Source: Hyalangium ruber
Lineage (GTDB): Bacteria > Myxococcota > Myxococcia > Myxococcales > Myxococcaceae
DNA length: 64,000 nt
Direction: 5' to 3'
Assembly (NCBI RefSeq): GCF_034259325.1
Contig: NZ_JAXIVS010000001.1
Coordinates: 682,001-746,000 of the forward strand
Shown: piece by piece, positions 9,985-20,149 of the stretch
Position numbering within the stretch: position 1 is the first letter of the stretch
Layout: each line of letters opens with the position of its first letter
The notes under the pieces: generated by a model
Databases searched by the model: none
What the model saw: only the letters and a program-made list of their open reading frames with translations
What the model was told of the DNA's origin: nothing
Position numbers and translations under genes: made by a program

Positions 9985-12318
9985 TCAGAGCTTGTCGGAC
10001 ACGTCCACGACCTTCTCGGTCAGGTCCCTCGCCTTGACGGTGACCTCGACCATGACCGACTCCTTGAGGTTGTCGCCACGCAGCTCCAGCGTGTGCGTGC
10101 CCTCCATCAGCTCCAGCTTGCCGCCCGGCAGGTAGGGGCCGAGATCCTGCCCGTCGCGGGTGATCTTCAGCGCCCCCGCGCTCTTGGGGATGACCTTGAG
10201 CCGCACGTGCCCGAGCCGGAACTCGCGCTTGATGGTCTTGGTCTCGCCAGGCTCGCCGAAGCGCAGGGCCTCCTCCTCCTCGGCATAGATGCCCTGCTCC
10301 TTGTTCTCGAGGATGAGGGTGTCCTGGATGTGCGCGCCCGACACCGCACGGAGCGGCGTGAGGCCCAGCTCGGTGAAGGGCTCGGGGCTGCCGCACTTGT
10401 CGCTGTGGCGCACCTTCACGTTCACCTTCGGCAGGGTGTCCACCGAGACGAACACGCCCATGCCGTCGATGGGCTTGCGCATCAGCTTGGGCCAGAAGAT
10501 GACCATCAGCGCAGCCACCGCCACGGCCGCCAACCCGAAGAAGACGATCTTCAGGGTCTCGGCGGGGAGCCGCAGCTTGGGCAGGCGCGACTCCGCCTTC
10601 TGCATGACCCGTGCTGGCGCGTCGTCCTCATTCCGGGCCTGCCTGGGAGGCGGCGCCTGCTTCACGTCCACCCGGCTGGAGGTGCGCCGACGCGGAGGTG
10701 GCGCGGCCTGCTCGGCCGGCTGGATGCGGCTCACATGCCCCGTGGGGCGGCGACGCGGCGGCGGAGACGGCGGCGGCAGCGTCTCCATGTCGTCGGGATA
10801 CGAGTCCTCGGGCTCCTCGTCGCGCTCGCGCTCGCGCTCACGCGGCGGCAGCCGGGTGCGCTCGGGGTCGGCGTATGGATCCTCGTCGTACCGGGCGCGG
10901 GCATCGACGGCGAGCGCCGCCACGCGCGAGGGCCGGGGCCCGGGCCTCGGCTCGTCCTCGTCCATGGGCAACTGGCGCGAATTGGTGCGACGCGGCGGAG
11001 GCGCGTCTCCGTCGGCCTGGCGCATGTCCGAGCGCGAGTTGGTGCGCGCGATGGTGGTGTGCTGGGCGCTGGTGGGGCGGCGGGGAGACTCGCCCGTGCG
11101 GCGACGGCCCACCGAGGTGCCACCGGCGGGCGCCGCGTACTCGGCCATCTCCTCGGCCAGCGACATGGTGCGCGTGCTGGGACGCGCCCCCACGTTGGTC
11201 CGCCCGCGCTCGCCTCGCTGGGGGTCGCCCGGCGGCTCCTCCCAGTTCCTGTCCGCGGCTGGCGACGAGCGCCCACCGCCCGGGTTGGAGCCGGGATCCG
11301 TAATGCGCTCGGACGGAGGGTTGGGCGCCGCCGGGTTGGCCGAGGCGACCGAGTCCTCGCCGATGGGCTCCGGGTTGCCCGACTTCTTCTCCTCCTCGAG
11401 CCGGTCGGCGAAGAGCGTCTCCATCAGCTCGGAGATCTGCACCGAGCTGGCCACCCACCGCTGGGCGACGAGCGTCTCCTCGAGGGCCACCTGGAACTGC
11501 CGCGCGTCGCGGTAGCGGTCATCGGCCGCCTTGGACAGCGCGTTCATCACCACCGAGTCCAGCTCCGAGGGCACATCGGCCACCTCGGAGGGCGCCTGGA
11601 TGGCGCACTCGAGCGCCGCCTGCAGCGTGGCCAGCTCCGAGTCGCGCTTGAGCGGACGCACCCCGGTGAGCAGCTCGTAGAGCACCAGGCCGATGGCGAA
11701 GATGTCGGCGCGCGCATCCAGCGCCTTGCCCGCCGCCTGCTCCGGCGCCATGTACGCGAACTTGCCCTTGATGGCGCCCGACTTCGTCAGGCCCATCGAG
11801 TCGGCCGCCTTGGCGATGCCGAAGTCCACCAGCTTCACCGAGCCGTCGAAGCTGATCAGGATGTTCTGCGGAGAGATGTCGCGGTGAACCACCTTGAGCG
11901 GGCGGCCCGCGCCATCCAGGCGCGTGTGCGCGTAGTAGAGACCCTCGCAGGCGCTGGCGACGATGCGGATGGCCAGCGGGCGGGCGATCCACTGGCCCGC
12001 GCCCCACGCCTTGCGCATCACCCGGCCCAGGTCCTCGCCGTGGATGAACTCCATGGCGATGAAGTAGGTGCCGTTGGCTTCGCCGAACTCGTAGACCTGG
12101 GCGATGTTCGGGTGGTTGAAGTTGGCGGCGATCAGCGCCTCGTTCTTGAACATCTCCACGAACTCGCGGTCCTCCGCCAGGTGCGGAAGGATGCGCTTGA
12201 TGACGACGTTCTTGGCGAAGCCCTCGATACCCGCCTGGCGCGCAAGCCACACCTCGGCCATGCCGCCCGTGGCGAGTTTCTTCAGAAGCTGATATTTGCC
12301 GAAGGGTTGAGGGTTCAT
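9985..12318 (-). CDS. Transmembrane Ser/Thr protein kinase
   Basis: 777 residues. The kinase domain occupies about residues 8-275: glycine loop LATGGMAEVWLA, VVIK lysine, catalytic HRDISPQN and Mg-binding LVDFGIAK. A roughly 230-residue Arg/Pro/Ser-rich linker follows, then one membrane helix (VFFGLAAVAVAALMVIFW, near residue 600) and a 155-residue domain that would face the periplasm. That domain ends in a PEGA-like beta segment (GQDLGPYLPGGKLELMEGTHTLELRG). The HRDIS variant (Ser in place of Lys at HRDxK) is common in myxobacterial kinases. Target and ligand are unknown. The gene is divergent from a membrane protein, with 32 bases between the starts. Confidence 0.93.
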   Translation of the reverse strand: MNPQPFGKYQLLKKLATGGMAEVWLARQAGIEGFAKNVVIKRILPHLAEDREFVEMFKNEALIAANFNHPNIAQVYEFGEANGTYFIAMEFIHGEDLGRVMRKAWGAGQWIARPLAIRIVASACEGLYYAHTRLDGAGRPLKVVHRDISPQNILISFDGSVKLVDFGIAKAADSMGLTKSGAIKGKFAYMAPEQAAGKALDARADIFAIGLVLYELLTGVRPLKRDSELATLQAALECAIQAPSEVADVPSELDSVVMNALSKAADDRYRDARQFQVALEETLVAQRWVASSVQISELMETLFADRLEEEKKSGNPEPIGEDSVASANPAAPNPPSERITDPGSNPGGGRSSPAADRNWEEPPGDPQRGERGRTNVGARPSTRTMSLAEEMAEYAAPAGGTSVGRRRTGESPRRPTSAQHTTIARTNSRSDMRQADGDAPPPRRTNSRQLPMDEDEPRPGPRPSRVAALAVDARARYDEDPYADPERTRLPPRERERERDEEPEDSYPDDMETLPPPSPPPRRRPTGHVSRIQPAEQAAPPPRRRTSSRVDVKQAPPPRQARNEDDAPARVMQKAESRLPKLRLPAETLKIVFFGLAAVAVAALMVIFWPKLMRKPIDGMGVFVSVDTLPKVNVKVRHSDKCGSPEPFTELGLTPLRAVSGAHIQDTLILENKEQGIYAEEEEALRFGEPGETKTIKREFRLGHVRLKVIPKSAGALKITRDGQDLGPYLPGGKLELMEGTHTLELRGDNLKESVMVEVTVKARDLTEKVVDVSDKL

Positions 12319-12350: not shown

Positions 12351-13118
12351 GTGGAAGGCGCTGCTGAGGCTCGGCATCTTAGGCTACGAAACTCCAGGAG
12401 GCAAAGCCGTCTCGTCGCCGCCCGGTGGGTGGTGCTGGGAGCGAGCCTGCTCGCCCTGGGCACGGCCCTGGCCGACACCCCGCTTGTCGCCCTGGGCAAG
12501 CCGGACCAGATCACCGTGGACAAGCGCAACAACGTGCTGCAGCTGTCCTGGTCGGACACCGAGGAGCGCCTCCAGGGCGCCCTCCAGCCCGACGTGCCCC
12601 GCGAGGGCCAGCCCCTCAAGGTCCAGCTGAACGTCGGCAGCTTCGAGGGGGCCGACTTCGAGGGCCCCATCACCGTCACCTTGCGCGAGGCCGGCGTCAC
12701 CCACGGCCAGGTGCGGACGCTCACCAAGGGCCCGGTCAACTGGACCACCGAGTTCATCCCCGAGCGGGATGGCCGCCACCAGCTGGATGTGAGCTTCCGG
12801 ACTACCCGGCTCAAGGTGCTGCACGCGGACTTCGACGTGGCCCCCACCCTGATCCCCCGCGTCATCCTCTGGAGCCTGTTGGGGCTGGCGGCCTTCTTGG
12901 CCCTGGTGTTCGGCGTGCGCGGCCTGCTGCGCAAGGAGAAGGCCCCCGAGGTCCACCCGATCCTCGCCGAGCTCCAGGCGGCGGAAGCCGCACCTGTCCC
13001 CACCTCCACCCCGCCCTCCCCGGACGCCAGCCCGCAAGCCCCGGTCGCCGCTCCCGAGAACGCGCCGGTGGCTGAAAGCTCTACCGGATCCGCTCCGGAC
13101 AAGCCTTCCGTGCTGTAA
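12351..13118 (+). CDS. Membrane protein with extracytoplasmic beta domain, unknown function
   Basis: 255 residues from GTG 12351; a later GTG at 12429 is also possible and would start right at the signal-like helix. That helix (WVVLGASLLALGTALA) should export the next 125 residues, which are beta-rich and Ig-like in pattern (GPITVTLREAGVTHGQVRTL, then RDGRHQLDVSF). A second helix (VILWSLLGLAAFLALVFGV, near residues 170-188) anchors the protein, and the cytoplasmic tail is Pro/Ala/Ser-rich. It lies head to head with the kinase gene, so the two may be co-regulated. I recognise no named family. Confidence 0.65.
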   Translation: MEGAAEARHLRLRNSRRQSRLVAARWVVLGASLLALGTALADTPLVALGKPDQITVDKRNNVLQLSWSDTEERLQGALQPDVPREGQPLKVQLNVGSFEGADFEGPITVTLREAGVTHGQVRTLTKGPVNWTTEFIPERDGRHQLDVSFRTTRLKVLHADFDVAPTLIPRVILWSLLGLAAFLALVFGVRGLLRKEKAPEVHPILAELQAAEAAPVPTSTPPSPDASPQAPVAAPENAPVAESSTGSAPDKPSVL

Positions 13119-13297: not shown

Positions 13298-14485
13298 ATG
13301 GCGGGTGGGCGTGGGGCGGATCAGAATTGGCGGGGCCTTCTCGCCGCAGTCCTCTTGAGTTCACCGGCGCTGGCGCAGGAGCCAGTGGACGAGGCAGCGC
13401 CGGAGTCCACCGAGGAGGCGCCGATCGAGACGGCGGCGATGGACACGACGGCGTTGCCCTCGGTGGAGCGCGAGGTGCCCGCGGTGGACGTGGCGGCGCC
13501 CGTGGCCACCCCCGAGGCGCCGAAGAAGAAGAAGAAGAAGAAGGAAGCGAAGGTGGAGCCGCTGGGTGAGAACCCGGACGCGGCGGATGACGCGAAGCAT
13601 GAGCGCAAGCTGCGCGTCTTCGGGCGTGTCTTCGCGCGGGCCAGCGCCGACGAGCGCGAGGACTTCACGCGCTCCATCTCGGTGTCCTCGGCCCGCCTGG
13701 GGGTGACGACCTCCTTCGAATATGTCGAGGCCGAGGTGACGGCGGACCTGTCCTCGAAGTCGATGCTCAAGGATGCCTTCGTGCGGCTGTCCGACAGCGC
13801 CAAGCAGCTGCGCCTCTATGGTGGCCAGTTCAAGGCGCCCTTCCTGGCGCGCACGCTGGAGTCCACGTGGGACCTGCCGCTCATGCGCCGGGGGCTCGTG
13901 GAGGACTACCTCACGGAGACGCACGCGATGGGCGGTCGGCGCCTGGGGCTGATGGGCGAGGTGCGCCTGAAGGAGACGTGGAACCTCAAGGTGTCCGGCG
14001 GCCTCTTCGAGGGCTCGAAGGATGAGCTGGGCCAGCGCACCAGTGAGGACGCCTCGGCGCGCGTGAGCGTGCGTCCTTTCAAGGCGCTCACCGTGGGGGC
14101 CAGCAGCTACATGTCCCAGGTCTTCGAGGGCACGAAGAAGCACGCGGTGGCCGCGGACGGCACGCTGGAGCTGGGCAACCTGGCGCTGTCGGGCGAGGCC
14201 GTCACCGGGCAGTTGGCGCTGGGGCCCTTCACCGCGCAGATGGGGCTGGTGAGCTACACGCTGCCGCTGGGCAAGACGCGGGAGTGGGCCGTGCAGCCCC
14301 TCCTCGGCGGCGAGGCCCTGCAGCTTCGGGGCGAGGTGACGGGGCGTGGCTGGGCGGCCGTGGGGGGTTTCAACATCCTCTATTCCGACTCCTTCAAGGC
14401 CCAGCTGCAGGCCGAGCGCGCGCTGCGTCCGGGGGATGAGGCCCCGGGCACCGAGTACTCGCTGCAGCTCGCCACACGCTTCTAG
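13298..14485 (+). CDS. Outer-membrane porin, phosphate-selective porin-like
   Basis: 395 residues from ATG 13298, chosen for GGAGG six bases upstream and a following signal peptide ending SSPALAQ. The mature N terminus is Ala/Glu/Thr-rich with a run of seven lysines (near residue 75) before the barrel. The barrel part resembles the OprP/OprO-like family: YGGQFKAPFLARTLESTWDLPLMRRGLVEDYL is the usual strand-loop with Arg-rich pore motif, and the last residues (YSLQLATRF) form a typical C-terminal barrel strand ending in Phe. It heads a five-gene operon; the VTC gene begins 15 bases later. If it passes anions such as phosphate or pyrophosphate, it would fit a polyphosphate role, but this is inference. 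Confidence 0.78.
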   Translation: MAGGRGADQNWRGLLAAVLLSSPALAQEPVDEAAPESTEEAPIETAAMDTTALPSVEREVPAVDVAAPVATPEAPKKKKKKKEAKVEPLGENPDAADDAKHERKLRVFGRVFARASADEREDFTRSISVSSARLGVTTSFEYVEAEVTADLSSKSMLKDAFVRLSDSAKQLRLYGGQFKAPFLARTLESTWDLPLMRRGLVEDYLTETHAMGGRRLGLMGEVRLKETWNLKVSGGLFEGSKDELGQRTSEDASARVSVRPFKALTVGASSYMSQVFEGTKKHAVAADGTLELGNLALSGEAVTGQLALGPFTAQMGLVSYTLPLGKTREWAVQPLLGGEALQLRGEVTGRGWAAVGGFNILYSDSFKAQLQAERALRPGDEAPGTEYSLQLATRF

Positions 14486-14500
14486 GGACGGAGGCTCGAG

Positions 14501-15217
14501 ATGCTCTCGTTCGCCGAAGGGGAAGTCACCAAGCTGCGCCGTGAGTTCAAGCTCGTGCTGGAGGCGCAAGAGGCGCTCCAGCTCTGCTCGCGGCTGTCCT
14601 CGGAGCTGGGCGGGTGCCTGCCACCGCCCACGCGGATCGTCTCCGTGTACTTCGACAAGCCGGGCCTGCCGCTCACGCACCGCGCGGTCTGTACGCCGGA
14701 GGACTGCCTCAAGGTGCGTACCAAGGAGTACTCGCCGGACATGGGGGCCGGCGGCGTGCAGCGCGTGGTGCTGGAGGTGAAGCGCGAGCGCAACGGGGTG
14801 ACGCAGAAGCGGCGGGTGTGGGTGCCGCGCTCGGAGCTGCGCCAGGTGATTCGGCGGGGTAGCCGCTTGCTGCCGCTCATCGCAGGGGGCAGCTTGCTGC
14901 CGGTGCTGGGGGTGACGTACCGGCGGCATGTGTACCAGGCCACGCACGCCTGGCGGGTGACGGTGGACCGGGACATCGGCTTCCACCACGTCACCTCCGA
15001 GCTGGCGCTGTCGGAGACGACGCTCACCCCCGAGCAGTTGGGCGCTCCGCTGTTCGAGGACGGGCGCGTGGTGGTGGAAGTGAAGCACCTGGGCGCGGAG
15101 CTGCCGTCATGGCTGGCGGCGCTCCACCCGGGGAGCAGGAAGCCGGCGTACAGCAAGTTCGCCGAGGGGATGGCGAAGGTTCACGCCTTCGCCGCGGATG
15201 GGGTTCTTGGGGGCTAG
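14501..15217 (+). CDS. VTC-domain polyphosphate-polymerase-like protein
   Basis: 238 residues, almost entirely a VTC domain, the catalytic fold of the yeast vacuolar polyphosphate polymerase Vtc4. The tunnel's basic and acidic landmarks can be followed: RREFKLVL, VYFDKPGL, KVRTKEYSPD, VVLEVKRERNGVTQKRR, YRRHVYQ, WRVTVDRDIGF and VVEVKHLG near the end. This is the complete set of Arg/Lys/Glu motifs expected for binding ATP and polyphosphate, so activity is plausible. There is no membrane segment; the membrane part is probably supplied by the DUF4956 protein two genes down. The start at ATG 14501 follows GGAGG. It is known that bacterial VTC domains often sit beside DUF4956 genes. Confidence 0.85.
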   Translation: MLSFAEGEVTKLRREFKLVLEAQEALQLCSRLSSELGGCLPPPTRIVSVYFDKPGLPLTHRAVCTPEDCLKVRTKEYSPDMGAGGVQRVVLEVKRERNGVTQKRRVWVPRSELRQVIRRGSRLLPLIAGGSLLPVLGVTYRRHVYQATHAWRVTVDRDIGFHHVTSELALSETTLTPEQLGAPLFEDGRVVVEVKHLGAELPSWLAALHPGSRKPAYSKFAEGMAKVHAFAADGVLGG

Positions 15218-15223
15218 GGCACC

Positions 15224-16918
15224 GTGTTCATCGACTTCGAAGGCATTGACGGCAGCGGAAAGACAACGCTCTCCAACCTCCTGGCCGCCCGGCTGCGGCG
15301 GCTGGGCTACAAGGTGGCGCACGCGCGCGAGGGAGGCGAGCTGCAGGCGCCCACGGCGCGGCGCATCCGGGAGCTGACGCGCGACGCGCGGCTCCTGGAG
15401 ATGTGCCCGCGCACCGAGTTCTTCCTCAACCTGGCGCGCGACGCGCAGCAGCTCGAGGAGGTCATCGCTCCCGCGCTGTCCCGAGGCGAGCTGTGCATCA
15501 GCGATCGCTACCTGTACTCGCAGCTGGCCCTGAGCGGCGGCGGGCGCGGCCTGCCCATGGAGGAGCTGGCGCCGGCGTGCGCCATGGCCTCGAAGGGCCT
15601 CTGGCCGGACCTCGTCATCCTCGTGGACGTGGAGCCGGACCTGGCGCGGCTGCGCAAGCGGCTGGGCAAGCTGAAGGAGGGCCGCAGCTCGGACGGCGAC
15701 AGCCGCAAGGGGCTGGTGGGCGCGGGGCTGGCGGTGCGTGTGCGCGAGTCCTTCCTGGAGATGGCGCGCAAGGATCCGTCGCGCTGGCTCATCATCGAGA
15801 ACAACGAGCAGCCGCTGTGGGTGCTGGAGCAGCGCATCGTCGACGCGGTGGTGGCGCGGCTGCAGGGGCGCGAGCCCCAGGTGCAGCGCATCTCCCCCTC
15901 CAACACCGTGCCGATGGAGCCGGTGACGGTGGACAGCGTGGAGGAGCGCTTCTTCCACGCGCTGGACTCGCTGGAGGTGCGCGAGCCCTCCCTGGCGGTG
16001 TGGATGTTGGGCGGCATGCCCGGGCTGGCGGCGCACCAGCGGCGCCTGGCGGCCGTGGAGCGCTTCCCGGGGCTGGCCGTGCGCAGCCTCACGGGGCTGG
16101 AGGACGAGGCCGCCTGGGCGCTGCGTGAGCTGCTGGCCAAGGTGGTGCCGGTGGATGTGGTGGCCAGCCTCGGCACCAGCCTGTCGCCTCGGGCCATGGC
16201 GCTGCGCGAGCAGCTCTATGAGCTGGCCCCGGGCGAGGTGCTCGCGGGTCTCAAGCGCAACGACAGCCCCGAGGCCTGGGCCCTGCGCGAGCGCGGCATG
16301 AGGGACCGGAAGCTCGCCGAGGTGCTGCTGGGCCTCGCGGGCGTGGACGGAGAGGCGGCCTGGTCCGTGCGCGAGCTGGGGGTGCAGAAGAAGCTGTACG
16401 CCGAGGTGGCGCGCAGCCTCACGGGCCTGAGCGGCGAGCGGGTGGACGCGCTCCGCGAGGCGCTGCTGCCCCATGACCGGCTCTCGGTGCTGCGCAGCAT
16501 CACCGGCCTGGACTCGCCCTTCGCCAACGGCCTGCGCGAGCAGCTCGAGGGCAAGGCGCTCAAGCTGGTGCTGCGCTCGCTCACGGGCCTCACCACCGAC
16601 GAGGCCTTCGCGCTGCGCGAGCGCGGCGCTCCGCTGACGAAGGAGGCCATCGACTCGCTGGACGGGCTGGATGATCCGCGCGCGTGGCAGCTGCGCGAGC
16701 AGTACGCGGAGCGCTGGCCGGCCACGGTGCTGTCCTCGCTCAAGGGGCTGCCGATGACGGCACGCGCCGAGGCGCTCATCGTCCGCATCCTGAGCGCCGC
16801 GCCCGGCAGACTGCCGCTCCTGCGCAACGCCTATGGCGTCATCGCCGCCTCGCACGAGGCCCCGGCCGAGCGCACGGCGCGTCCGGCGGCCAGCACCGAG
16901 TCGCGGGTCACGGTCTAG
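15224..16918 (+). CDS. Thymidylate-kinase-like P-loop protein with long repeat tail
   Basis: 564 residues from GTG 15224. Residues 1 to about 215 match the thymidylate kinase fold: FIDFEGIDGSGKTTLSNLL (P-loop), the AREGG equivalent of REPGG, and SDRYLYSQLAL (DRY motif). The remainder is about eight repeats of roughly 28 residues with the consensus LRSLTGLxxxxAWALRExxx, near residues 285-520, likely an alpha-helical solenoid. A normal dTMP kinase is about 210 residues, so the tail is extra. It lies 6 bases after the VTC gene and is directly followed by the DUF4956 gene, so it more likely acts on a nucleotide or phosphate connected with polyphosphate than in dTTP synthesis. That substrate is inference. 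Confidence 0.8.
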   Translation: MFIDFEGIDGSGKTTLSNLLAARLRRLGYKVAHAREGGELQAPTARRIRELTRDARLLEMCPRTEFFLNLARDAQQLEEVIAPALSRGELCISDRYLYSQLALSGGGRGLPMEELAPACAMASKGLWPDLVILVDVEPDLARLRKRLGKLKEGRSSDGDSRKGLVGAGLAVRVRESFLEMARKDPSRWLIIENNEQPLWVLEQRIVDAVVARLQGREPQVQRISPSNTVPMEPVTVDSVEERFFHALDSLEVREPSLAVWMLGGMPGLAAHQRRLAAVERFPGLAVRSLTGLEDEAAWALRELLAKVVPVDVVASLGTSLSPRAMALREQLYELAPGEVLAGLKRNDSPEAWALRERGMRDRKLAEVLLGLAGVDGEAAWSVRELGVQKKLYAEVARSLTGLSGERVDALREALLPHDRLSVLRSITGLDSPFANGLREQLEGKALKLVLRSLTGLTTDEAFALRERGAPLTKEAIDSLDGLDDPRAWQLREQYAERWPATVLSSLKGLPMTARAEALIVRILSAAPGRLPLLRNAYGVIAASHEAPAERTARPAASTESRVTV

Positions 16919-16927
16919 GTGAGCGCC

Positions 16928-17629
16928 ATGGAACCTACCTTCACGCAGCTGTTCAGCGAGGTCGGCAAGGAGTTCACCTCGCTGAACGTGGGCGCCATCC
17001 TGCCGCGCATGGTGGCGGCGGTGATCATCGGCGCCGTGCTGTCGCTGCGTCCCTGGCGCCCGCTCATGGGGCGGGCGATGCCCAAGTCGGAGATGATCCA
17101 GGCCCAGGTGCTCCTATGCACCGCGGCCGCCGTCATCACCGCCGTCATCGGCGACAGCCTGGCCAAGGCCTTCGGGTTGGTGGGCCTGGGCGGCTTCGTG
17201 CGCTTCCGCTCGGGGCTCAAGGATCCGCGCGACGCGGCGATCCTCTTCCTGATGATCGGCCTGGGCATGGCCTGCGGGCACGGCAGCCTGGGGCTGGCGG
17301 GCGTGGGCACGGTGTTCGTCGCCCTGCTGCTGCTGGTGCTCGACTTCTTCAACAAGGAGGAGAAGGTCGCCAAGCAGCGGGTGGTGCTATCGGCGCAGGC
17401 GGATGACCTCATCGGCGCGGAGGCCTCGCTGCGCAAGGCGCTGGGCGAGCGCAACGTGCTGGTGAAGGGCTGTGCGTTCGACTTCGACGGGCGCCGGCTG
17501 GAGCTGGAAGTGGAAGAGAAGGAACCCGGGACCCTCGCCCAGGCGCTGGGCCGGACGGAGGGCGCGCCCCTGCGTGGGCTGCGATGGACCGCGGTGAACC
17601 CCAAAGGTGGACGGGAGGAACTCGTATGA
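16928..17629 (+). CDS. DUF4956 membrane protein
   Basis: 233 residues from ATG 16928; a GTG at 16919, touching the previous stop, is the alternative start. Three to four membrane helices fill the first 145 residues (VAAVIIGAVLSL, VLLCTAAAVITAVIG, ILFLMIGLGMACG, VFVALLLLVLDFF). Between them is the DUF4956 signature LGGFVRFRSGLKDPRDAA, whose Arg/Lys cluster faces one membrane side. A cytoplasmic alpha/beta tail of about 80 residues follows. The family function is unproven; its frequent pairing with VTC domains suggests it holds the polymerase at the membrane or passes its product. Its stop overlaps the start of the lipoprotein gene (ATGA). Confidence 0.87.
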   Translation: MEPTFTQLFSEVGKEFTSLNVGAILPRMVAAVIIGAVLSLRPWRPLMGRAMPKSEMIQAQVLLCTAAAVITAVIGDSLAKAFGLVGLGGFVRFRSGLKDPRDAAILFLMIGLGMACGHGSLGLAGVGTVFVALLLLVLDFFNKEEKVAKQRVVLSAQADDLIGAEASLRKALGERNVLVKGCAFDFDGRRLELEVEEKEPGTLAQALGRTEGAPLRGLRWTAVNPKGGREELV

Positions 17630-18396
17630 AGAGGGCTGTGGTGGCCGCGTTGGCGGCGGGGGCGTGGCTGGTGGGGTGTGGTGGCGGGGGCAGCCTGCCG
17701 CCCGGAGAACAGCCCGTGAATCCAGGGGGGCCGGTGGCGCTGCCGGGCACCCCGGAGACGCCTGGAGAGGAGAACAAGCCCACCGTCACGCAGAGCCTCT
17801 GGCCGCTCACGACGGGCTCGACCTGGACGTACCTCATCACCGATCCCAACCAGGGCACCTTCCATAAGACGGTGGAGGTGAAGGGCCCCAGCGAGGTGCC
17901 GAACATCACGCCGAAGATGACCGGCGTCCTCGTCCACAGCCGCCAGGCACGCGCCACCGAGACCTATGAGGAACAGTCCTGGCAGTTGGAGCTGACCAAC
18001 GGCCTCGTGGTTCGCCTGCGCGAGGAGGACATCCAGGACGGCATCCCCATCCGGGCCACCACCTGGACCACGGCCAGCGGCACCGCCGCCACCGTGAAGT
18101 CCATCTCCCGTGAGCAGGCGATGACCTGGAAGCACGCGGACACCATCACCGAGTGGACCCGCATGGGCGACGGCTCCCAGGACAGCAAGGAGCGCACCTA
18201 TGAATGGACCGTCCTCGCGGTGAACGACACCGTGTCCACCCCGGCGGGCACCTTCACCAACGCCATCAAGCTGCAGCGGCGCCGGCTCGACAAGCAGTCC
18301 AAAGACCGCACCTACTGGCTCGTGCCCGGCATCGGGAAGGTGAAGGAGACGGGCGAGCGCGACGAGGAGCTCGTCTCCTTCGACATCAAGAAGTAG
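17626..18396 (+). CDS. Lipoprotein of the VTC operon
   Basis: 256 residues from ATG 17626, which overlaps the DUF4956 stop by four bases and has GGGAGGA upstream. A type II signal ends in WLVGCGGGG (lipid Cys near residue 18). After a Pro/Gly-rich spacer comes a beta-rich domain starting LWPLTTGSTWTYLIT, with WTVLAVNDTVSTPAGTFTNAIKLQRRR and YWLVPGIGKVKE. This pattern is common in secreted bacterial lipoproteins of unknown role. It is the last gene of the five-gene operon and would sit in the cell envelope. Confidence 0.8.
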   Translation: MKRAVVAALAAGAWLVGCGGGGSLPPGEQPVNPGGPVALPGTPETPGEENKPTVTQSLWPLTTGSTWTYLITDPNQGTFHKTVEVKGPSEVPNITPKMTGVLVHSRQARATETYEEQSWQLELTNGLVVRLREEDIQDGIPIRATTWTTASGTAATVKSISREQAMTWKHADTITEWTRMGDGSQDSKERTYEWTVLAVNDTVSTPAGTFTNAIKLQRRRLDKQSKDRTYWLVPGIGKVKETGERDEELVSFDIKK

Positions 18397-18526: not shown

Positions 18527-20149
18527 ATGCATCTGGCGAAGGTACCCGCGCTTGGCGCTCTAGCCCTGGCGCTCACTCTGACCACGGGGGCTGCCCACGC
18601 GGCGACCCTCACGCGTACGCCCTATCTGCAACGCGTGGGCCCCGACACGGCCACCGTGGCCTTCCGGCTGGACACCAACTGCTCGCCCGAGGTCCGCTAC
18701 GGCATCAACGGCGCGACGAACCTGGTCGCCCGCTCGCAAGCAAGCGGGCGTGTGCATGCCGTGGTGCTCACCGGGCTGACGCCGGGCGCCGAGTACACCT
18801 ACCTGGTGGAAGGCTGCGGCGCCAAGACCGAGCCCAAGCGCTTCAGCACCGCGCCCGTCCCCGGCACGCGCAAGGTGCGTTTCGCGGCCGTGGGCGACTT
18901 CGGCACCGGCGGCAAGAGCCAGAAGGAAGTGGCCGCCGCCATGCTCACCCAGCAGCCCGAGCTCTTCGTCGCGCTCGGTGACAACGCCTACTCGTCCGGC
19001 ACCGAGGCGGAGATCCAGAACAATCTCTTCGCCCCCATGGCGGCGCTGCTCGCGGAGGTGCCCTTCTTCGCGGTGGCCGGCAACCACGAGTACGTCACCA
19101 ACGCCTCCCAGCCGTACCTGGACAACCTCTACCTGCCCACCAGCCCCAGCGGCGGCGAGCGCTACTACTCGTTCGACTGGGGCCACGTTCACTTCGTGGG
19201 GCTGGACTCGAGCTGCGCCATCGGCCTGGCCTCCAAGGACCTGTGTACCCTGGAGGCGCAGAAGAAGTGGGTGGAGGCGGATCTCGCGGCCAGCACCGCC
19301 GACTGGAAGGTCGTCTACTTCCACCACCCGCCCTGGTCGAGCGGCGAGCACGGCTCGCAGCTGCTCATGCGCCGCGAGTTCGGGCCACTGTTCGAGCGCT
19401 ACGGCGTGGACCTCGTCCTCACCGGGCATGACCACAACTACGAGCGCAGCCACCCCATGCTGGGAAATGACCGGGCTCCCTCGGGCCAGCGTGGCGTCCC
19501 CTACCTCGTGGTGGGCGGCGGCGGCGCCTCCCTGCGCGCATTCTCCGCCTCGCAGCCCGCGTGGAGCGCCAAGCGCAACAACACGGACTTCGGCTTCCTC
19601 GACGTCACCGTCATCGAGGGCACCCTCACCGCCCAGCTCCGGACGCCCAAGGGCGGGGTGATCGACTCCTTCACCCTGACGAAGCAGCTCGCGCCGCGCG
19701 AGGATCCTCCTCCCGCCGCGAAGCTGAGCATCGACGTGGAGGGGGAGCGGGGCAACGCGCCGCACCAGGCCTTCTTCCTCGCCACCCCGCCCTCCTCCGA
19801 CACCACGGTGAGCTGGGACTTCGGAGACGGGCAGAGCGCCGAGGGCACTCAGGTGACGCACCTCTATAACGAGCCGGGCCAGTACACCGTGACGGCGACA
19901 GCCTCCAACGGCGACACGGCCACCACCCAGGTCGCCGTGGCGGAGGCGGACACCGGCGAGGTGCCGACCACGCCAGGAACTCCCGTCACCGGCACCCCGC
20001 AGCCCTCTCCCGGTCCGTCGCAGGGGACGAATCCCCCGCTGTCCGATGAGGGCGGCGCCAGCGCCGGGTGCGCCACCGTCCCCATGGGCGCGTTGCTCCC
20101 GCTGGGTGCGCTCGCCCTGGCCGGGTTGCTGCGCCGCCGGCGGCGCTGA
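18527..20149 (+). CDS. Secreted metallophosphoesterase (purple acid phosphatase-like) with PKD domain and MYXO-CTERM tail
   Basis: 540 residues. A signal peptide ends GAAHA, then an Fn3-like domain (TLTRTPYLQRVGPDTATVAF). The metallophosphoesterase core follows with its metal motifs in order: VGDFGTGG, LGDNAYS, AGNHEY, HHPPW and TGHDHNYER. A PKD domain (VSWDFGDGQSAEGTQVTHLY) lies near residues 400-460. After a Thr/Pro linker the protein ends with GCATVPMGALLPLGALALAGLLRRRRR, shown here as Cys, helix, Arg cluster: the MYXO-CTERM tag for myxosortase-type surface sorting. It probably hydrolyses phosphate esters outside the cell. Translation may be controlled by the hairpin just before the start. 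Confidence 0.9.
   Translation: MHLAKVPALGALALALTLTTGAAHAATLTRTPYLQRVGPDTATVAFRLDTNCSPEVRYGINGATNLVARSQASGRVHAVVLTGLTPGAEYTYLVEGCGAKTEPKRFSTAPVPGTRKVRFAAVGDFGTGGKSQKEVAAAMLTQQPELFVALGDNAYSSGTEAEIQNNLFAPMAALLAEVPFFAVAGNHEYVTNASQPYLDNLYLPTSPSGGERYYSFDWGHVHFVGLDSSCAIGLASKDLCTLEAQKKWVEADLAASTADWKVVYFHHPPWSSGEHGSQLLMRREFGPLFERYGVDLVLTGHDHNYERSHPMLGNDRAPSGQRGVPYLVVGGGGASLRAFSASQPAWSAKRNNTDFGFLDVTVIEGTLTAQLRTPKGGVIDSFTLTKQLAPREDPPPAAKLSIDVEGERGNAPHQAFFLATPPSSDTTVSWDFGDGQSAEGTQVTHLYNEPGQYTVTATASNGDTATTQVAVAEADTGEVPTTPGTPVTGTPQPSPGPSQGTNPPLSDEGGASAGCATVPMGALLPLGALALAGLLRRRRR

Follow-up and report, generated by a model that had tools for sequence, protein, structure and literature searches.

A conserved porin–VTC–kinase–DUF4956–lipoprotein operon in Hyalangium ruber and its possible role in envelope polyphosphate

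The 64,000-nucleotide stretch of the Hyalangium ruber genome analysed here (the window; contig NZ_JAXIVS010000001.1, positions 682,001 to 746,000 of the forward strand) contains five genes at 13298–18396 that form a conserved operon. They encode a porin, a VTC-domain protein, a thymidylate-kinase-like repeat protein (TMKr), a DUF4956 membrane protein, and a lipoprotein. We tentatively propose, with a confidence that falls a little short of even, that the operon specifies a polyphosphate module spanning the envelope, in which TMKr is an accessory kinase derived from thymidylate kinase. The gene content, its conservation, the folds, the intact residues of the VTC protein, and the changed acceptor residues of TMKr were all obtained by computation. 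The five genes are as follows.

13298..14485, + strand: porin, ATG start, 395 residues with a signal peptide, taken from the open reading frame list
14501..15217, + strand: soluble VTC-domain protein, 238 residues, probable polyphosphate polymerase (PF09359, 3e-16)
15224..16918, + strand: TMKr, GTG start (PF02223, Thymidylate_kin, 9e-26)
16928..17629, + strand: DUF4956 membrane protein, ATG start with an alternative GTG at 16919 (PF16316, 2e-11)
17626..18396, + strand: lipoprotein, 256 residues, MKR...GC lipobox, no known family

Conservation of the gene set

The genes are separated by gaps of 15, 6, 9, and -4 bases, the start of the lipoprotein gene overlapping the stop of the DUF4956 gene by 4 bases; the coordinates and gaps given in the first-pass annotation, which was made from the sequence without database searches, proved exact. 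Among the first 60 relatives, TMKr was present in 21 genomes (in one of them split across contigs) and VTC in 22. Direct reading of 14 loci gave the order porin, VTC, TMKr, and DUF4956, mostly followed by the lipoprotein, with 3–8 bases between VTC and TMKr; the lipoprotein was conserved in 13 relatives. A survey of 195 genomes of the phylum found TMKr in 75, VTC in 94, and both in 70 (Fisher p 8e-26, a value inflated by the kinship of the genomes). VTC lay upstream on the same strand in 90 of the 98 TMKr loci of these genomes, immediately upstream in 70 and 1.2–1.3 kb upstream, with porin-sized room between, in 20. The remaining eight loci comprised two contig ends, three loci where VTC was missed or may have been missed by the profile, two rearranged paralogues, and the locus of genome G037. 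A tblastn search recovered VTC in both profile-missed loci that were read (G045 and G144). On the strength of the conserved linkage between VTC and TMKr, we rejected a chance grouping of genes. The first-pass annotation had suggested a gene-neighbourhood survey, and the survey found the kinase gene beside VTC in most TMKr-bearing relatives rather than absent there in all of them.

The linkage also appears in other arrangements. A barrel-like gene (no Pfam match), VTC, and TMKr stand in a row in a Planctomycetota metagenome-assembled genome (MAG), and a Myxococcales MAG has VTC, an Na/Pi cotransporter, and TMKr in order. A Kofleriaceae MAG carries a PPDK_N gene, TMKr, a barrel, and a lipoprotein-like gene, with no VTC within the examined stretch.

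Residues of the VTC protein and of TMKr

The VTC-domain protein passed the cut-off of PF09359, and a profile built from 21 VTC homologues and searched against the PDB retrieved the chains of VTC4, VTC2, and VTC3 (best 7e-12) and nothing else significant. K94, K103, R142, R152, E193, S218, and K219 were invariant across the 21 homologues. The equivalents of R266, K281, K294, R361, R373, E426, and K458 of VTC4 were all invariant, and that of R264 was K or R; these VTC4 numbers were assigned via the profile alignment and the numbering of VTC4. The second residue past the E426 equivalent was an invariant Lys in place of the second glutamate. In the ExExK motif, the first position was mostly basic and the second was kept as Glu (Glu15). 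This residue pattern favours, rather than proves, a polymerase, and the VTC domain recognized in the first-pass annotation was borne out with its polymerase-type residues intact.

An alternative is that the protein acts as a triphosphatase or belongs to some other class of tunnel enzyme. The tunnel-enzyme superfamily covers many activities (PMC4641920). In addition, Glu15 is one acidic position typical of triphosphatases, and the VTC protein of the present operon type (type A) is only 20–24% like the copies of the second type (type B, described below). However, plant and bacterial triphosphatases have an acidic patch where VTC4 has basic residues, and the equivalent of the catalytic Lys458 of VTC4 is dispensable in the plant triphosphatase (PMC4641920); here the Lys458 equivalent is invariant, and so is the Lys that stands after E426 in place of the second glutamate. 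These residues, together with the restriction of the significant PDB matches to VTC chains, led us to regard a triphosphatase as improbable.

The AlphaFold2 (AF2) model of TMKr (predicted local distance difference test, pLDDT, 90; predicted template modelling score, pTM, 0.87) consists of two parts. Residues 1–215 form a P-loop domain of the thymidylate kinase fold (Z 26.6 and root-mean-square deviation 1.7 over 202 residues to 4edh), and residues from about 262 to 505 form nine two-helix repeats of ~27 residues, followed by C-terminal helices. The repeat consensus is S-L-x-G-L-D-x-x-x-A-W-x-L-R-E, in which the arginine is 98% conserved over the nine repeats. We considered this arginine as a polyphosphate-binding ladder and rejected the idea; the solenoid is about neutral, Asp and Glu neighbours are common, and a structural role is equally likely. 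No Pfam repeat family was found among the matches of 21 members, the solenoid not having been folded or searched alone.

The acceptor sites of 26 TMKr proteins were compared with those of 78 canonical thymidylate kinases (Tmk) from many phyla. The canonical set was chosen by the P-loop pattern, so that only columns outside the pattern are informative. Pro37, Arg73, and Gln104, each present in 78/78 canonical enzymes, were kept in 0/26 TMKr proteins, in which Pro37 was replaced mostly by Gly, Asp, or Lys, Arg73 by Asp or Glu, and Gln104 by Ala, Ser, or Thr. Tyr103 (77/78) was replaced mostly by Leu, a new and invariant Arg72 appeared, and the LID motif D-R-x-E became S-R-K-G. In Tmk, residues at some of the replaced positions bind the thymine base. 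The P-loop (EGIDGSGKT), Arg49, Asp94-Arg95 (the DR motif), Arg144, Arg161, and Arg174 were unchanged; the LID arginines are retained. Since residues invariant in canonical Tmk are replaced, the acceptor of TMKr is probably not deoxythymidine monophosphate (dTMP), despite the automatic annotation as such. The nucleotide kinase of the first-pass annotation is therefore retained only as a kinase: its donor machinery is kept, but the Tmk acceptor-site invariants are lost, so that a nucleotide is only a candidate acceptor.

That TMKr is a plain second dTMP kinase, placed in the operon by happenstance, would agree with its fold match and with its NCBIfam dTMP kinase score (98.3 bits against a cut-off of 83.25). 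We nevertheless consider it highly improbable. In addition to the acceptor-site replacements, all 26 TMKr proteins fall on one side of a fully supported branch as a single divergent clade, and the long repeat domain and the fixed linkage to VTC set them apart from Tmk. A standard-length Tmk match is present elsewhere in the H. ruber genome; on the basis of this match and the loss of the acceptor residues, we rejected a housekeeping dTMP kinase. TMKr resembles a thymidylate kinase that has acquired a new function, and automatic pipelines will label it dTMP kinase. PPK2 enzymes, which are likewise P-loop kinases with a polyphosphate link, have been described as thymidylate-kinase-like (PMC3163519, PMC3680246). 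In contrast to them, TMKr matches Tmk in the profile library; the PPK2 family was absent among the Pfam matches of 21 TMKr members, no direct profile or fold comparison to PPK2 having been made.

Envelope components, other operon versions, and neighbouring genes

On its own, the porin sequence matched no Pfam family, but of the 20 proteins in its alignment 13 matched the phosphate-selective porin family Porin_O_P (PF07396, best 2e-9). In other families, too, VTC has a related Porin_O_P gene before it. The DUF4956 protein scored 44.2 bits with PF16316 against a cut-off of 30.6. Its AF2 model, of middling quality (pLDDT 74), has helices followed by a beta-alpha-beta-beta-alpha-beta tail, for which the fold search gave only weak ACT-like (ACT/ferredoxin-type) matches, none with E under 0.001. 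An ACT-like tail has likewise been described for SIR_1592 of S. intermedius (PMC12345266).

A second operon type, with the order CotH, VTC, porin, TMKr, and DUF4956, was found in several genomes. In the H. ruber genome, this type is split into CotH-TMKr-DUF4956 and VTC-porin-DUF47, the DUF47 gene being PhoU-like; one other genome has it split at another point, into CotH-VTC and porin-TMKr-DUF4956. Seven CotH-domain matches were found in the H. ruber genome. DUF4956 directly follows VTC in 20 of the 22 VTC-bearing genomes without TMKr, in agreement with the first-pass view of DUF4956 as a VTC partner. Five genomes of the same family carry a tight operon of VTC, DUF4956, HlyD (HlyD_3), and TolC (OEP) without TMKr; in four of the five, a gene for a lipoprotein-like PPDK_N (ATP-grasp) protein lies upstream or close by. 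Another family has CotH, VTC, DUF4956, HlyD, and TolC, and two others have Porin_O_P, a CotH-domain membrane protein, VTC, and DUF4956. The constant core is VTC plus DUF4956. Many of these Gram-negative versions also include a channel of the outer membrane, and TMKr, a lineage-specific extra, is inserted between VTC and DUF4956. The assignment of the porin to a phosphate-selective family, the paralogous operon with CotH, and the version with HlyD and TolC in sister genera go beyond the first-pass annotation.

Three genes adjoin the operon.

18527..20149, + strand: purple-acid-phosphatase-like metallophosphatase with a PKD domain and a MYXO-CTERM tail (PF00149, 4e-19; PF00801, 2e-13; TIGR03382)
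12351..13118, + strand: secreted or membrane protein of 255 residues, no Pfam match above the cut-off
9985–12318, - strand: Ser/Thr kinase gene

The metallophosphatase gene starts 130 bases past the lipoprotein gene and is retained after the operon in many relatives. This gene and that of the 255-residue protein are conserved neighbours and candidate operon members. The Ser/Thr kinase and the 255-residue protein stay beside the operon in same-family genomes. No sigma-70 promoter or terminator scored above shuffled sequence.

The proposed polyphosphate module

In the module that we tentatively propose, the soluble VTC protein would dock on DUF4956 and polymerise polyphosphate from ATP on the cytoplasmic side of the inner membrane. 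Either this chain or the phosphate that feeds it would cross the envelope via DUF4956 and the Porin_O_P barrel with the assistance of the lipoprotein. TMKr would be an accessory P-loop kinase with its phosphoryl-donor machinery kept and its acceptor pocket altered, and its helical-repeat half would probably tether the kinase to VTC or DUF4956. Its reaction, the weakest step of the scheme, is a guess: TMKr may pass phosphoryl groups between ATP or polyphosphate and some small acceptor located at the synthase, serving priming, recycling, or regulation. The polymerase activity, the translocation and its direction, and all that concerns the substrate of TMKr are inferred. The membrane-linked polyphosphate system of the first-pass annotation is partly supported, as to the VTC residues, DUF4956, the adjacent kinase, and the envelope proteins (the porin with its signal peptide, and the lipoprotein), but not as to the identity of the nucleotide kinase.

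The presence of HlyD and TolC genes nearby suggests export, and Porin_O_P, the Na/Pi cotransporter, DUF47, and the neighbouring phosphatase indicate phosphate traffic, which fits import too. A system for uptake and storage only, in which the porin imports phosphate or pyrophosphate freed by the neighbouring phosphatase and VTC stores polyphosphate in the cytoplasm without export, is worth weighing. The Porin_O_P family includes the uptake channels OprP and OprO, the metallophosphatase gene adjoins the operon, the Na/Pi cotransporter lies between VTC and TMKr in the Myxococcales MAG, and DUF47 follows the VTC-porin pair in H. ruber. We consider this explanation somewhat unlikely; the sister operons carry HlyD-TolC, which are export parts, and the secreted CotH kinases of other versions point outward.

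The nearest described gene set is the cassette of CotH, polyphosphate polymerase (VTC), and DUF4956 that accompanies Gram-positive Pel operons (PMC7112168; SIR_1592-1594 of S. intermedius, PMC12345266). It shares with the present system the VTC-DUF4956 pair, the membrane helices and ACT-like tail of DUF4956, and CotH, which here is in the paralogous operon. The present operon differs in its Gram-negative host, in its porin and lipoprotein, and in the TMKr gene between VTC and DUF4956. A surface or exopolysaccharide role, in which secreted kinases together with VTC and DUF4956 would alter proteins of the matrix or surface, perhaps as in the Pel loci, with polyphosphate as a signal or phosphate donor, would accord with these accessory genes (PMC7112168), with the altered Pel-dependent aggregation of DUF4956 and CotH mutants (PMC12345266), and with the CotH gene of the paralogous operon. 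Such a role appears distinctly unlikely, as CotH is absent from the type A operon at 13298–18396, its proteins and near neighbours gave no Pel-type match with Pfam profiles, and no Pel genes were noticed in the relatives read.

Several points weigh against the envelope module. Apart from the retained Glu15 of the VTC protein, G037 has TMKr with no VTC found and seems to be VTC-less, the TMKr solenoid is not net basic and gives no hint of polyanion binding, the HlyD/TolC-type neighbours occur without a classical inner-membrane pump, and the channel role given to DUF4956 is conjectural. In the open-licence papers searched, no VTC-domain protein of bacterial origin with a measured activity was found. 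Furthermore, because the H. ruber genome already has two PPK1 matches and one PPK2 match, the operon is not needed for bulk polyphosphate, and the module probably has a specialised task instead of being the chief supplier of polyphosphate.

The VTC4 tunnel domain of the yeast VTC complex is homologous to the present protein, with the mapped catalytic residues in common and with synthesis taking place beside a membrane partner. The bacterial protein differs in having neither an SPX domain nor membrane helices of its own, and its partner is DUF4956 instead of VTC1-type helices. The open-licence papers searched on VTC with DUF4956 or with thymidylate kinase did not describe this operon, and no paper found covered TMKr or the versions with a porin or with HlyD-TolC.

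The prevailing view is that PPK enzymes make bacterial polyphosphate and that it stays inside the cell, and the eukaryotic VTC complex couples polyphosphate synthesis to translocation. The outer-membrane channels of the different versions, the Porin_O_P barrel or HlyD with TolC, may be interchangeable. A broader picture, which we put forward as fairly unlikely, is that bacteria have a VTC-type machine that both synthesises polyphosphate at the inner membrane and carries it through all layers of the envelope. DUF4956 would be its inner-membrane part and Porin_O_P or HlyD-TolC its exits; myxobacteria would have added a Tmk-derived enzyme whose acceptor is new, and surface kinases such as CotH might draw on the polyphosphate once it is exported. 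A synthase of the VTC type, if indeed linked to channels of the outer membrane, would constitute a second bacterial polyphosphate route, with export or envelope deposition, that is comparable with the eukaryotic VTC complex.

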